Origin: Xanthobacteraceae bacterium
Lineage (GTDB): Bacteria; Pseudomonadota; Alphaproteobacteria; Rhizobiales; Xanthobacteraceae
Assembly: GCA_030037185.1 (NCBI GenBank)
Contig: JASHRR010000335.1
Location: 1 to 8,389, forward strand
Reading direction: 5' to 3'
Length of the DNA stretch: 8,389 nt
Positions 1-8,389 of the stretch are shown piece after piece. How positions within the stretch are numbered: the stretch's first letter is position 1; each line of letters opens with the position of its first letter. The position numbers were made by a program, and so were the translations under genes. Under the pieces are notes generated by a model. That model searched no databases. It saw only the letters and a program-made list of their open reading frames with translations, and was not told the origin of the DNA.

Positions 1-480
1 AATTAATTGACGCGGCCGCTTCTCAGTCGACCCTTGGTTTGCCAAACATTATTTACGTTCTCCCCCCTGTTTAGGCGATAATTTGCTCCTCGCAGCCAAA
101 CCCAGGATTTCCACTTGAATGTCGGTATTGGAAAATAAGAATGCTGGAATTGCAAATAACAATGCCTGGATTGTAAATATCAGCTAAACGGACAACAAAG
201 TCGCTTTTGCGACGTTATCGTGGGCTAGTAGGGGCCGGCCGCTGGTGACATTGCGACCAGTGGGCAGAGCCGTGGGCCCCTGCCACATTTTGATTGCGCC
301 AACTGTCTCCATTTGATCACAGCGGTGTAAATTCTGCTATTGGCGCCGGTGCCCTCTCAGAATCCCCGGATAGTCCACAACAATGTCGCAAAGGCGCCCC
401 TTGGTTTCACTAGCCGTGATACCGGTAGGGAGCCACCGTCCCGATTTCGATCGGTCTCGGGTGGCTGTCGTCATAAGTGC
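1..480. other. AT-rich leader region without a recognised gene
   Basis: No convincing coding sequence is visible on either strand. The stretch is clearly richer in A and T than the rest of the window, especially between about 40 and 200. It holds a degenerate tandem repeat (annotated separately), a short palindrome GTTTGcCAAAC at 38-48 and a small hairpin GTCGC-TTTT-GCGAC at 200-213. It lies directly upstream of the stranded start of the multicopper oxidase pseudogene, so it probably contains that gene's old promoter. I could not pick out a convincing -35/-10 pair. Confidence 0.5.
123..184. repeat. Degenerate 22-bp tandem repeat, about 2.8 copies
   Basis: Three consecutive AT-rich units begin at 123, 145 and 167. 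Units one and two are 22 bp and share a core resembling GGAATTGCAAATAACAATG. The third is cut short after AAATATCAGC. The period of two helical turns puts equivalent bases on one face of the DNA, as for cooperative protein binding or intrinsic curvature. The copies differ by substitutions and one-base indels, so the repeat is old. It sits about 310 bp upstream of the stranded oxidase start. Function is unknown. Confidence 0.65.
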
Positions 481-497
481 GGGGGAGGAAGCTAATG
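481..497 (+). promoter_or_regulatory. Stranded Shine-Dalgarno and start codon of the multicopper oxidase
   Basis: GGGGGAGGAA at 481-490 is a near-ideal ribosome binding site, four bases before an ATG at 495-497. As the DNA now stands, this start opens an uninteresting reading frame. If the segment 510-883 is flipped back, the same ATG, followed by TTC AAC AAA, runs into the hydrophobic signal-peptide coding sequence of the oxidase after a single-base frame correction in the AACAAACCACC run. I therefore read it as the original translation start, separated from its gene by an inversion. Confidence 0.6.
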
Positions 498-509
498 TTC
501 AACAAACCA

Positions 510-883
510 CCAGCGTTCGCGGTGCCGGTGTGTCGGTCGATTGGGGGTTGTTGGTTACCGTGATATTGAGGGTATCGCCGGCCGTTAGTGCAGGGTCGGG
601 TTCTCCATGCCGTTTGGGGTCATAAAGCAAAAACAGTTGTCGGCCAGCCGAATCGGTGGCGGTTTGATAAGAGAACCTGACGTACAGAACGCCGTTCTGG
701 CCGAACAGTGCTGCGGCTTTTGAACTACGCTGCCGGCCGCAAATCGCTGACATGGGTTGGCAACAGGGGCCACGGCAGTCGAACTGGTAACACCGGCGGC
801 GCTCGCCGCCGCGGAGCTTGCCGGGCTCGCGGTTTGAGCCGTGGCTGCACCACCTGCGGCCCACAAAGCGATGATTACGCTGG
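510..883 (-). pseudogene. Multicopper oxidase (laccase-like), inverted N-terminal part
   Basis: Read from 883 downwards, this strand encodes, in pieces, the start of a secreted multicopper oxidase. The order is a hydrophobic export signal (SVIIALWAAGGAATAQ), an Ala/Ser/Thr-rich linker, then NPCQRFAAGSVVQ, ALFGQNGVLYVRFSYQTATD, CFMTPNGMENPTLH and TAGDTLNITVTNN. The last piece is the typical first-cupredoxin-domain GDTL.I.V.N signature. At least three frameshifts separate the pieces: near 718, near 628 and near 583. The next part of the same protein lies on the opposite strand from 884 onward, so this block appears inverted. CCAGCGT at 510-516 and ACGCTGG at 877-883 mark both ends. In a working form the product would be an exported copper enzyme oxidising phenols or metals. 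It cannot be made from this arrangement. Confidence 0.82.
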
Positions 884-1345
884 CTGACGCCTTCCAATCC
901 CGTCGGGGATTCGACCGAGGCCTTCAACGCGCCCACCTGCGGAGATACGACGCAATTGACGCAAAACCCGGCGAACAGCAACGGCGTGACTGGCGGTTCG
1001 ATCAACATCGACTATCACGGCACCAACGCGAGCCCGGCGTGTCATGGCGATAACGTCGTAAAAACGCTGATCAATCCCGGAAACACTTTCTCCTACAGCA
1101 TCCGGTTCCCGACCAACGAGCCGCCGGGACTTTATTGGTATCACCCGCACGTTCATGGCCTTTGCGGAAGCTGCTGTCCAGGGCGGTGGATTCCGGAGCC
1201 CTCGTGGTTGATGGCATTAACAATATGCAGCCAGCGACTGCCGGCCCGCCCTAGCGCATCCTGATAATCCGCGACCTGCCGACGCTGCAGGGTCTGCAGG
1301 AAAGTCCTGGAGACACGGAAGGTGGCGTTCCGCGGGAGGCCTGAA
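884..1345 (+). pseudogene. Multicopper oxidase (laccase-like), continuation of first cupredoxin domain
   Basis: The frame from about 890 to 1160 reads AFNAPTCGDTTQ, then SINIDYHGTNASPACHGDN, VVKTLINPGNTFSYSIRF and PPGLYWYHPHVHG. This is the classic first domain of a multicopper oxidase with the second copper-binding motif HPHVHG intact. The first motif, normally HxHG, reads DYHG, so one copper-ligand histidine is replaced by Asp. After HVHG the frame shifts (FAEAAVQGG), then shifts again to SGALVVDGINNMQP. A TAG stop lies at 1252-1254, followed by RILIIRDLPTLQGLQESPGD up to a TGA at 1342-1344. The second and third cupredoxin domains are absent. Similarity stops where the integrase remnant begins. 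Family assignment is secure; the natural substrate is unknown. Confidence 0.88.
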
Positions 1346-4150: not shown

Positions 4151-4989
4151 GATTGATCCACTATTTTCGTCACCATCGCGGCAAGAGTGTTGCCTGGCAT
4201 CCCGGTCGCCGAGGCTGCGCAGCTTGGCCAGATAGACGCACTTGCTGGTCGGAAGCTGCTACTGTTCGGTCAACGGGCGTGATGGAGTCCTCCATTGCCA
4301 TTATCAAATTTCATCCCGCTCAATCCGCGATGACGGAGGACTTTATTTCGGGAACATATGAGATGCGGCGCCCGAGACCTGGCGTCAGGCGTCTGCACAT
4401 TTCGAGCAAGGAGGAACTGTTTCGGCGGCAGACATTGTGTCCGTTGCCCCCGTTGGGCGCGGGGCTGACGGCCGGGGCATGAAGCGGGCAAAGAGAGTGT
4501 CGAGCAAGCTTTATTTGCCGAAGGAAGTGGGCGATCTTCGCGAAGACTGGATGGAACGACGCCGGTGATTAATCTGGCAGATGGGAGCGATCGTCTACCG
4601 GGCACGGCGAAACGCCGCCCCCGTTACCCAAAGAGATGCGTACTTGAGCGAAGAGCAACGTGCGATCCGATCGCCGCCGGCTCCCCCCGCAGCAACGGGG
4701 CTGGGCGGCTTGGCCGAGCTCCCGCCCAGGAGGCCAATAAGGCATCCGCAAGCACTCTTATGCAGCGATAACAACTGTGGATTGTATAGAAGCGAAAGGA
4801 CTTCGGTGCAGGGGAATTCATTGCTCGGCGGCGCCGCCGCCGGCACGATCCCGCCACCGGCCTCCATCGTCGCCCAAGCCTCGCCCGCCAAATCCGCGAT
4901 CCCGCATGCGACGGAGGTAAGGAGAGCCCGTGCGCACTATCGCGCCCGAACCTGTGTTTCGTATCCTGAAGGCGAGCGCGGCTGGCCGA
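4151..4989. other. Long stretch without a recognised gene
   Basis: Overlapping open frames are present on both strands, but none carries a domain, signal peptide or convincing ribosome binding site. One frame (4157-4282, plus) reads protein-like, VLPGIPVAEAAQLGQI followed by LAGRKLLLFGQ. It lacks a start and ends in TGA, so it may be a gene fossil. Another short frame ends at 4568 with KLYLPKEVGDLREDW. I cannot assign either. Much of 4600-4900 is Ala/Pro/Arg-type GC-rich sequence, which gives open frames by composition alone. Confidence 0.35.
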
Positions 4990-5097
4990 TCAAGCCCGGG
5001 CGTTGCGCCACGCATTCCGAAATGCCGACAACCGCGGTAGCGGATAGCGGCGATAGATCCCGTAGTGCATGAGGAACCGCTTGATAAACGCGCGCAT
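4990..5097 (-). CDS. Small basic protein (35 residues)
   Basis: The minus-strand frame from the ATG at 5097 to the TGA at 4990 encodes MRAFIKRFLMHYGIYRRYPL followed by PRLSAFRNAWRNARA. ACAGGTG lies about five bases upstream and could serve as a ribosome binding site. The pattern of a short basic amphipathic helix, an IYRRY element and a final aromatic-Arg AWR block resembles very small proteins I associate with alphaproteobacterial genomes. I cannot name a family. With about nine Arg/Lys and no acidic residue it could bind nucleic acid or lie along a membrane. The frame is open further upstream: an ATG at 5178 gives about 62 residues and a GTG at 5220 gives 76. The compact form looks best. 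Confidence 0.5.
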   Translation of the reverse strand: MRAFIKRFLMHYGIYRRYPLPRLSAFRNAWRNARA

Positions 5098-5489
5098 AGC
5101 CACACCTGTCGTTTCTTCCCTCGGCAATGCTTCTCGGCGAAATAAGTTCAGCCGGGCATCGCACTTTAGCTTGGTCATAGTAGCTCGAATTTTTTTATGA
5201 TTTTTGCAGGAAACGATCACATCTTTATGAACTCTCGGAGCCGCGCTTCAGCGCCTCCTGCAGAAGCACGATTTGGCGCGCGGCAGCCTCTGATTCTATC
5301 CTTATTCCCCTTACATTTCAGTGCGTTGACGCAAGATCCGGCAACAGAGACCAACTGCTTCTGCTCGGCGGCCGGGTTCGTCCGGGCCCGGCGTGTTCAT
5401 CAGGATGCGCAGTGCTCGAGTGAAATCACAAGCCCGGTTATAGCCAAGTGAGAACTGGTTTGGCCCCTGTTGTTACGGCACCACTCCTC
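5098..5489. other. Intergenic stretch between the small basic gene and bpt
   Basis: No plausible gene is visible. A short AT-rich run at about 5186-5206 lies upstream of the small basic gene and may hold its promoter, but the candidate elements are weak. The remainder is GC-rich, with open frames that show no domain. The window's only gene ending toward this stretch is bpt, which runs leftward. Confidence 0.35.
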
Positions 5490-5535
5490 AAGTCTGGGCT
5501 TCGGCTTGATTTCGCAAATCTCGAACTCCAGACTT
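5490..5535 (-). terminator. Stem structure at the end of bpt, possible terminator
   Basis: AAGTCTGG and its exact complement CCAGACTT lie at 5490-5497 and 5528-5535, the latter overlapping the last base of the bpt stop region. Between them is a nested small hairpin GATTT-GCG-AAATC (minus-strand reading). The transcript could therefore fold into a branched structure right after the stop codon. There is no T-run, so it would be a poor intrinsic terminator. It may instead protect the 3' end of the message, or be chance. Confidence 0.3.
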
Positions 5536-6287
5536 CACTTTTCGACGCGAAGCCATCCCTCAGGCGCAAGCCTTTCCTGCGGCAGAAAGCGTCCTTTGTA
5601 ATCCATCTTGCGGGAGCCGTGCACCCAGTAGCCGAGGTACACATAGGCAAGACCCATGTGTCGCGCCCGTGCGATGTGGTCGAGGATCATGAAGGTGCCC
5701 AGCGAGCGGTGCTCGGGCTCCGGCTCGTAAAACGAATAAACCATTGACAGCCCATCCTTGAGGACGTCCGTCAACGCTACGGCGAGGAGCTCTCCCTTGG
5801 GGCTGGAAATGGAGGTACGAGCGCCGGAGCTGCGGCGCCGATATTCGATTATCCTGGTCTGAACATGGCTGTCCTCGACCATCATGGCGTAATCCAGCAC
5901 CGTCATGTCGGCCATCCCGCCGTCGTAGTGGCGGGCGTCGAGATAGGCGCGGAAGACGGAATACTGCTCGGAGCTCGGCACCGCGAGACGCATCTCGCCC
6001 TCAAGGTCTCGGTTGCGGTCAAGCACGCGGCGCATGTTGCGGGTCGGGCGAAACTCATTGGCGATGACCCGCACCGACACGCAGGCCCGGCAACCCTCGC
6101 AAGCCGGCCGGTACGCGATCGACTGGCTGCGCCGGAAGTCTCCGTGCGTGAGCAGATTGTTGAGATCACTGGCGCGGTCCCCGACCAGATGCGTGAACAC
6201 CTTCCGCTCTTCCTGCCCCGGCAAATAGGGACACGGCGAGGGCGCGGTCAGGTAGAACTGCGGCGTATCGCGGGAATGCTGGGTCAA
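5535..6287 (-). CDS. bpt: Aspartate/glutamate leucyltransferase (bacterial protein transferase)
   Basis: The 250-residue product adds leucine from Leu-tRNA to proteins with N-terminal Asp or Glu. This makes them N-degron substrates that ClpS delivers to the Clp protease in the cytosol. The N-terminal domain shows CPYLPG (Cys19) and [13 protein letters not shown] (Cys63, 66, 69), the conserved cysteines of the ATE/Bpt family. The C-terminal domain has [26 protein letters not shown], a SMVYSFYEP block and the final [20 protein letters not shown] signature. Length matches the family. I chose TTG at 6287 because the protein from there ([13 protein letters not shown]) begins like known Bradyrhizobium relatives and GAAGAAG precedes it. 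The ATG at 6359 would add 24 residues of Pro/Arg-rich sequence unlike the family. The gene is intact and appears monocistronic, with long non-coding flanks. Confidence 0.96.
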
Positions 6288-6373
6288 AGGCTTCTTCGTG
6301 CGCGTTCGATGAGGTGCGTTATTTGTCTGGGGCCGGGGGCCGCCGCCCTCGCCGACCATAGATTTGCGCGGTT

Positions 6374-6394
6374 ATGGCTTTTCGTCAAAGCCAT
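6374..6394. repeat. 8-bp hairpin in the bpt leader
   Basis: ATGGCTTT at 6374-6381 pairs perfectly with AAAGCCAT at 6387-6394 around a five-base loop. It lies about 87 bases upstream of the bpt start and 22 bases from the larger palindrome. No T-run follows on either strand, so it is not an intrinsic terminator. In a bpt leader transcript it would fold as a stable stem. Confidence 0.5.
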
Positions 6395-6416
6395 TTGCTC
6401 GACCTAACCTCTGTAT

Positions 6417-6893: not shown

Positions 6894-7238
6894 ATGTGGA
6901 AATCAGAATTGGCCCTGTATTCGTCTGGACCACGGTCGCCGCAAGTCCCCCGCGATCTGGCCGCGCCGCAACCTGGCATCTCCTGGCGGCTCGTGCCGCA
7001 GCTGCAGACGGGAAAGCCTTATGCTCCTGGTGCGCGGCAGCGCAAGCCGCCACGCCGCCCGGCTGAATCCTCAACGACATTGCAGCCGGACGCTGGGGCT
7101 TCGGATCAGCTGCCGCGGGAAGGGAGCATTCCGTTCAAGCCTAGCCGACGCAAGGTCGGCGTCCGCATTGTCACTTTTCAAGTCATTCTCAGGCTTTTAC
7201 TGCGCGCTACGGCCTACCACATCGCTCAACCGCCCTAA
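6894..7238 (+). CDS. Doubtful hypothetical protein (114 residues)
   Basis: The ATG at 6894 follows AGGGGAAGGGGCA, a plausible ribosome binding site, and the frame runs to TAA at 7236-7238. The product begins MWKSELALYSSGPRSP, is rich in Pro, Arg and Gln in the middle (KPYAPGARQRKPPRRPAESS), and ends with a hydrophobic-basic stretch, IVTFQVILRLLLRATAY. I recognise no family. Longer frames overlap it in other phases on both strands, so base composition alone may explain it. It has no link to its neighbours. Confidence 0.22.
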   Translation: MWKSELALYSSGPRSPQVPRDLAAPQPGISWRLVPQLQTGKPYAPGARQRKPPRRPAESSTTLQPDAGASDQLPREGSIPFKPSRRKVGVRIVTFQVILRLLLRATAYHIAQPP

Positions 7239-7489
7239 GGCGATCTTGTCACGAGGCTCCGGCCCTTCCGGTTGCCCGGGCCGAGCCGCTCGTCAGCTGC
7301 AGACTAACACTCTGGATGGACGCCTCCTTCACAAGTGATTCGCGACTTCGAGGCGCACGGCCAAGATAAACATGCTCCGCGCCTCTTCGCAGCAATGATG
7401 GTGTCGGGTACCATACGGCCGCTACGTCCGCCTCGAGAGGACTCAAGATGTATCGCCGAACTCCAGCAACTAGCTCGCGTTCAGCGAAG

Positions 7490-7524: not shown

Positions 7525-8389
7525 ATGCGCTGTGGATGGTTGCCCCCCCTTGTCATCGCCGTCACGTCCTCGATTGGATTGTCCGCTGGTTTGTCCGCTG
7601 CGGAAAACACCTTCACACTCGAGGAGTCGACCATAGCGGAAATTCACGAGGCCGTAGTTGCCGGAGCGTTGTCGTCTGAAAAGCTGGTCGAGCTCTATCT
7701 TGCGAGGATTGCCGCTTACGATAGGGCTGGTCCTCGGCTCAACTCGATCATCTATATAAATCCGAATGCCAAGGCGGAAGCAGCCGCTCTCGATAAGGAG
7801 CGTGCTGATAAGGGAGCGCGCGGCCCGCTGCACGGCATTCCCGTTTTGCTCAAGGATAATATTGATGTCGCCAACATGCCGACTACAAATGGATCTGCGG
7901 TCATGAAGGGCGCCATTCCGCCCGAGGACGGCTCTATCACTAAGGCCCTCCGGGCTGCGGGTGCGGTGATCCTGGGAAAGGCTGCGATGGGCGAATTCGC
8001 GGGAGGTAGCTACAACTCGGTACGCGGCCAAACGCTCAATCCCTATAACGTCAAGCGCACAACTGGGGGCTCGAGCAGCGGTTCGGCAGCGGCGGTCTCA
8101 GCCAACTTCAGCGTTCTAGCGGTTGGAACCGACACCAGTACCTCAGTTCGTGGTCCCGCTTCCTATACGGGCATTGTCGGCCTGCGGCCGACAACCGGAC
8201 TCATATCGCGCGCCGGCATTGCGCCAAAAAATCTGAATTTTGACAGCGCGGGCCCGATGGCCCGCAACGTGACGGACCTCGCGCTGATGATGAACGTTCT
8301 CGCCTTCCCGGACCCAAAAGATCCGAAGAGCGTGCAGGTGTGGGGCGAGGTCGAGAAGATCAATCCCACAGCAAAAAACGGCGTGGATT
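7525..8389 (+). CDS. Secreted amidase, amidase-signature family (3' end beyond window)
   Basis: The ATG at 7525 is six bases after GGAGG (7514-7518). The 288 residues visible start with a Sec signal (hydrophobic LPPLVIAVTSSIGLSAG, cleavage about SAA before Glu27). They continue into the amidase-signature fold: EIHEAVVAGALSSEKLVELY, GPLHGIPVLLKDNID with the catalytic Lys110, and GGSSSGSAAAV with the cis-Ser at about 183. Next come the nucleophile region GTDTSTSVRGPAS (Ser207) and the GIVGLRPTTGLISRAGI segment. All three members of the Ser-cisSer-Lys triad are present. The enzyme hydrolyses an amide or ester bond outside the cytoplasm; the substrate cannot be told. Full-length relatives are usually around 500 residues, so roughly the C-terminal 40 percent is missing only because the window ends. 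TST replaces the common TGG before the nucleophile, as in some secreted relatives. Confidence 0.95.
   Translation, partial: MRCGWLPPLVIAVTSSIGLSAGLSAAENTFTLEESTIAEIHEAVVAGALSSEKLVELYLARIAAYDRAGPRLNSIIYINPNAKAEAAALDKERADKGARGPLHGIPVLLKDNIDVANMPTTNGSAVMKGAIPPEDGSITKALRAAGAVILGKAAMGEFAGGSYNSVRGQTLNPYNVKRTTGGSSSGSAAAVSANFSVLAVGTDTSTSVRGPASYTGIVGLRPTTGLISRAGIAPKNLNFDSAGPMARNVTDLALMMNVLAFPDPKDPKSVQVWGEVEKINPTAKNGVD

Follow-up and report, generated by a model that had tools for sequence, protein, structure and literature searches.

A multicopper oxidase pseudogene of the Xanthobacteraceae with a reversed 340-bp segment at its 5' end, most likely the product of end-joining

The window analyzed in this study, a stretch of 8,389 nucleotides, contains near its low end the remains of a multicopper oxidase (MCO) gene. 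Judged by sequence comparison, it is an MCO pseudogene, FtsP/CotA-like according to the label of its relatives, in a host of the Xanthobacteraceae group. The remains fall into three blocks. A Shine-Dalgarno-like stretch, the ATG at 495 and codons 1–17 (495–545) occupy 481–546 on the plus strand in the original orientation; the codons were located by tblastn, and the start signals (a ribosome binding site-like stretch and the ATG, 481–497) were read by eye. An inverted segment of 340 bp (547–886), delimited by blastn and tblastn, is read on the minus strand with about three frame changes and holds the rest of the signal-peptide region up to GDTLNITVTNN. The continuation, from TPSNPVGD to TEGGVP, lies on the plus strand at 887–1335, where the frame changes twice and a stop codon occurs, and ends at about 1335. 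The left and right inversion junctions are located at 546/547 and 886/887, respectively.

Several further features were found in the window. Scattered pieces that are possibly degraded remnants of a tyrosine recombinase or integrase abut the truncated MCO end on the minus strand (1363–1610). The profile match to the NCBIfam XerA type was weak (E 6e-4, 19.5 bits, far below the cut-off of 220). Against plasmids, the integrase-like pieces gave no match at E 1e-5; at E values up to 10, matches with E 0.1–9 were obtained, partly to non-integrase proteins. At this relaxed level the first piece matched 6 plasmid records, 2 of them annotated as tyrosine recombinase and 4 not, and the second piece 115 records, with 7 of the 8 listed annotated as recombinase or integrase. 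A search of five genomes with the recombinase piece returned a single match, a stretch of genome G001 antisense to the MCO of that genome. From their sequence, these pieces may be recombinase-like remnants, a weak possibility, and they are not tied to the inversion. A minus-strand match to an Rfam family of group II intron domains (RF02003) was found at 7202–7332, with 55 bits against a gathering score of 49. In genome G024, six sites match the segment 2877–2961 at 79–81%; four of these sites lie close to the low ends of their contigs, a pattern as expected of a putative dispersed repeat. The 5' part of an amidase gene (Pfam Amidase, E 5e-75) is found on the plus strand at 7525–8388, where it is cut by the window end.

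To collect intact relatives, the plus-strand fragment 884–1264 was searched against 84,980 genomes of bacteria and archaea. A relative was encoded in 205 stretches, and the best 80 of these 205 were kept. Translations of nine of the best 80 (L001–L008 and L033) were aligned to the unaltered window by tblastn; for five of the nine (L001, L002, L003, L005, and L033), blastn was run as well. L001 stems from a Xanthobacteraceae metagenome genome and has a 673-codon frame. Additionally, protein searches yielded 124 relatives (126 minus P0001 and P0002, which represent inverted alleles and were set aside); of the 124, 120 are the top-ranked entries listed from a set of 3051.

The protein of L001 matched the window on both strands. 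Residues 39–157 aligned to 884–547 on the minus strand in two frames, and residues 158–306 to 887–1335 on the plus strand. On the DNA level, three blocks were obtained: positions 130–202 of the L001 slice matched 473–544 (plus strand, 78%, E 1e-10), positions 201–563 matched 891–547 (minus strand, 79%, E 5e-85) and positions 564–1008 matched 887–1333 (plus strand, 85%, E 7e-146). These blocks abut in the coordinates of L001 itself, and their order in the window is plus, minus, plus. The same order was given by L003 and L005, while L002 and L033 matched the inverted and right blocks without the left one. The inverted block shared 79% identity with L001, 84% with L003 and 75% with L005 in blastn, and the best tblastn E value of the relatives across the matched window blocks was 7e-63. 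With 547–886 as the sole target, minus-strand matches were found for all five relatives tested and plus-strand matches for none. The real block scored 96–302 bits (best match of each relative), compared to a top score of 30 bits among 200 base-shuffled copies.

Among the 124 protein relatives, 61 showed a minus-strand block ending near 547 together with a plus-strand block starting near 887; the other 63 did not show the two blocks together within the set coordinate limits. In 40 of the 61, the residues on either side of 547/887 were consecutive with a gap of 0, and the remaining 21 had a different join. The short left plus-strand block (17–22 residues) was seen in just 16 of the 124. Collinear flanks around a reversed inner block are what is found here, as in a conservative inversion, with less certainty at the left join. 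The first-pass annotation had interpreted the locus as adjacent, non-overlapping parts of one MCO on opposite strands, resulting from an inversion of the 5' part of the gene inside a pseudogene. The L001 blocks bear this out, and neither matches to different paralogues nor overlapping protein coordinates were found.

The extent of the inversion differs from that proposed initially. On the plus strand, 495–545 encodes MFNKPPAFAVPVCRSIG, which is still in place and matches the intact N-termini MFNRSVAFAVPLRRSIG in L001 and MFNKPAAFAVPLRRSIG in P0012. In tblastn, residues 18–37 of L001 aligned to 486–545 and residues 8–29 of L003 to 480–545, both on the plus strand. Since the N-terminus is thus encoded in place at 495–545, the inverted part comprises 547–886. 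The segment had been given as 510–883, and the plus-strand block at 486–545 had been overlooked. Re-inversion had also been thought to reconnect the ribosome binding site and ATG with the signal peptide; in fact, the start was never parted from its first 17 codons.

At the right join, TNN is followed by TP, and the residues are continuous as in the relatives. The left break falls within a codon, after which the register with L001 resumes (residue 37, then 39). The residue count at this join varies among relatives, P0022 having one fewer. These alignments suggest that little or nothing is likely to have been lost at the joins. As the ancestral DNA is deduced from relatives of 75–85% identity and the left join varies in residue number, microhomology over a few bases is possible, as is a loss or gain of that size.

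The reading of the MCO is interrupted in both of the longer blocks. In tblastn, it switches back and forth between frames -3 and -2 within the inverted block and shifts among +2, +3, and +1 in the right block; the final matching stretch contains an in-frame stop. Beyond residue 306 of 673, L001 found no match in the window by tblastn or blastn. Homology over more than one block, combined with lesions that disrupt the frame relative to intact relatives, characterizes the gene as an MCO pseudogene. Due to the frameshifts, the stop codon and the missing 3' part, it is dead in either orientation. The Pfam domain Cu-oxidase_3 (PF07732) was recognized on 956–1264 (E 7e-6, 26.5 bits, cut-off 21), and the minus-strand frames 502–1008 and 588–866 gave no Pfam match. 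Most of the closest intact relatives listed have a length of about 600–690 amino acids, and two are labelled Xanthobacteraceae; the ancestral MCO was probably exported. A plus-strand open reading frame over the left junction (383–622) returned three candidates from the protein collection, none significant, a result that speaks neither for nor against the inversion.

A 7-bp inverted repeat had been reported to sit exactly at both junctions. Both heptamers exist but lie off the joins: CCAGCGT (510–516) is located 30 nt outside the true left join and ACGCTGG (877–883) 3 nt inside the true right join. Chance alone often produces such pairs: when 500 pairs of similarly sized regions were drawn at random from this window, 31% contained one or more 7-bp inverted pairs. 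Around the true joins, the top-scoring inverted matches reach 5 (within 12 nt), 6 (within 25 nt), and 8 (within 50 nt), values equalled or exceeded by 184, 236, and 87 of 500 random placements, respectively. Within these distances of 546/547 and 886/887, no inverted repeat above chance was found, and no repeat was present at both joins. The longest inverted match within 300–1600 is 24 nt at 71%. The microhomology-mediated mechanism built on the wrong breakpoints is hence unsupported. The case illustrates how placing breakpoints by eye can lead one to take a nearby short repeat for the cause of a rearrangement.

The inverted allele was also recovered elsewhere. When the minus-strand frame 502–1008, which spans both joins, was used as a query against proteins, six of 66 candidates were hits (P0001–P0006). 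P0001 (JGI, 2159-bp contig, three member sequences) was identical in 167 of 169 residues over its whole length. This near-identity across both joins indicates that both junctions are present in another contig. P0002 (2546-bp contig) follows the minus strand of the window between about 777 and 340, with serine in place of the stop codon 499–501; its residues 1–48 match 1217–1074 on the minus strand, after which the protein continues from about 777. A stretch of about 296 bp (778–1073, edges set by hand from the protein only) is missing in this allele and intact in the window itself. P0002 crosses the left junction, and the right junction lies within the missing stretch. As it keeps the left junction without the right, the deletion would have followed the inversion, unless the P0002 contig is misassembled. 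P0003–P0006 read as uninverted MCO pieces. In total, sequence comparison places the inverted allele in three contigs, with P0001 and P0002 known as proteins only and possibly from the same sample as the window. The suggestion that the inversion dates the order of decay holds in part: the deletion in the sister allele can be placed after it, but nothing within the window orders the events.

The distribution of the gene was analyzed in the family of G001 (391 genomes, drawn from a larger group) by a search at the DNA level, in which two candidates were scored for each genome. Matches at E 1e-3 were obtained in 59 of the 391 genomes. The gene itself was found only in G001, G002, and G003, and the matches in the other 56 were short (≤63.5 bits); remote MCO copies would be missed by a DNA-only search limited to two candidates per genome. 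The uninverted form, which the first-pass annotation had advised looking for in related strains, is present in all three carriers. In G024, the closest genome, no match to the MCO was found. The arginyltransferase gene of the window shared 86% identity with G024, the single genome of its genus that was compared, and in the genus of G360 (265 genomes) this gene was the best-scoring match to the whole window (78%). Together, 4985–5225 and 5514–6398, which cover the arginyltransferase gene and its upstream region, are collinear with contig 50 of G024 at 86%. As the MCO region has no match in G024 despite this collinearity over 4985–6398, the remnant may sit in a lineage-specific stretch. A plasmid search for the locus gave no match.

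Taken together, we are highly confident that the locus is an MCO pseudogene in which 547–886 has been reversed with the start and first 17 codons left in place, most likely through end-joining. Two double-strand breaks would have bracketed 547–886 in the 5' end of the MCO, and the freed 340-bp segment would have been rejoined backwards by homology-independent end-joining. The gene would also have acquired its frameshifts, stop codon and 3' truncation, and a later deletion of about 296 bp in one allele would have removed the right junction. End-joining is considered most likely because the joins lack an above-chance inverted repeat and the residues of the relatives are continuous across both. 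Ku was found in six of seven related genomes, including G024, and was not found in G001; the host itself was outside this set of tested relatives. The required machinery is thus plausible.

Other origins were weighed against end-joining. Replication template switching or another fork error is unlikely, though it deserves serious consideration. Template-switch events can leave little homology, and inverted matches are indeed present near the joins (GATTGG at 539–544 and 894–899, TCGGTCGA at 533–540 and 911–918); these are off the joins and at chance level in the random placements given above (236 and 87 of 500), and 340 bp is long for an inversion of this type. A flip between CCAGCGT and ACGCTGG would draw on two heptamers that are present and mutually inverted, but 510–545 encodes the N-terminus on the plus strand, 884–886 belongs to the minus-strand block, and comparable pairs are frequent. 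The block alignments and the random-pair counts rule out breakpoints at 510/883 with a 7-bp repeat, and we give this flip next to no credence. That two unrelated fragments of different paralogues lie head to head is conceivable in principle, as MCO genes can be multicopy; it is exceedingly improbable given that for 40 of 61 relatives the two blocks follow each other in one protein with no residue skipped or repeated, and that ranking the five relatives by score gives one and the same order for the inverted block as for the right one. The window may be a metagenome contig, which would leave room for an assembly artefact or chimera. Two separate contigs encode proteins crossing both junctions (2159 bp) or the left one (2546 bp), and the longest inverted match within 300–1600 is too short and divergent to be a long repeat that would mislead an assembler, so that an artefact is extremely unlikely.

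It is also very improbable that the segment is a reversible intragenic inverton, flipped by a recombinase to turn the oxidase on or off. Weak integrase-like matches lie nearby, at about 1363–1610, and intragenic inversions are a known kind, for which Chanin et al. (2024) is cited. Invertons are flanked by inverted repeats of 10–40 nt, as described in PMC11892184, and the joins here show no inverted repeats beyond chance. Moreover, the gene is dead in both orientations, and the three gene-holding genomes are all uninverted. A switchable inverton is rejected on account of the absent repeats and the dead gene; the locus is unlikely to be a switch and does not appear to represent phase variation. 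The inverted gene is a functionless scar now.

Returning to the main reading, the pseudogene is an ordinary relic of gene decay, though a real one. It offers a clean and checkable small inversion in a dead gene, with a related allele that orders the inversion and then the deletion. We tentatively entertain a more far-reaching view, in which a few hundred bases may have been inverted in a natural population without homology and possibly to the exact nucleotide, while a derivative that later suffered a deletion is still extant. If true, the locus would preserve a naturally occurring trace of bacterial end-joining inversions, in the form of Ku-type rejoining of a freed fragment backwards. If blunt inversions turned out to be common in genomes with Ku, they could serve as a gauge of end-joining in uncultured bacteria.

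As in FtsP/CotA-like MCOs with their N-terminal Cu-oxidase_3 domain, the GDTLNITVTNN, YHGTN, and WYHPHVHG regions are recognizable in the window gene; the latter two are motifs that we take to belong to the copper sites. In contrast to these enzymes, the gene is inverted inside, frameshifted, interrupted by a stop codon and devoid of its C-terminal part, and it encodes no working protein. Among the literature titles surveyed, none dealt with this locus or with homology-free small bacterial inversions, a statement confined to these titles. The intragenic invertons credited to Chanin et al. (2024) resemble the present case in that the inversion lies wholly within the coding sequence; they differ from it by their flanking inverted repeats and switchable product. 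For microinversions, PMC2483231 refers to mammalian examples, and it links inversions in bacteria to inverted repeats, of which the joins described here show none above chance. Small inversions of this kind (microinversions) share with the present locus a short segment, a single change of orientation and collinear flanks, whereas the inversion described here lies in a dead gene and has a sister allele with a later deletion.
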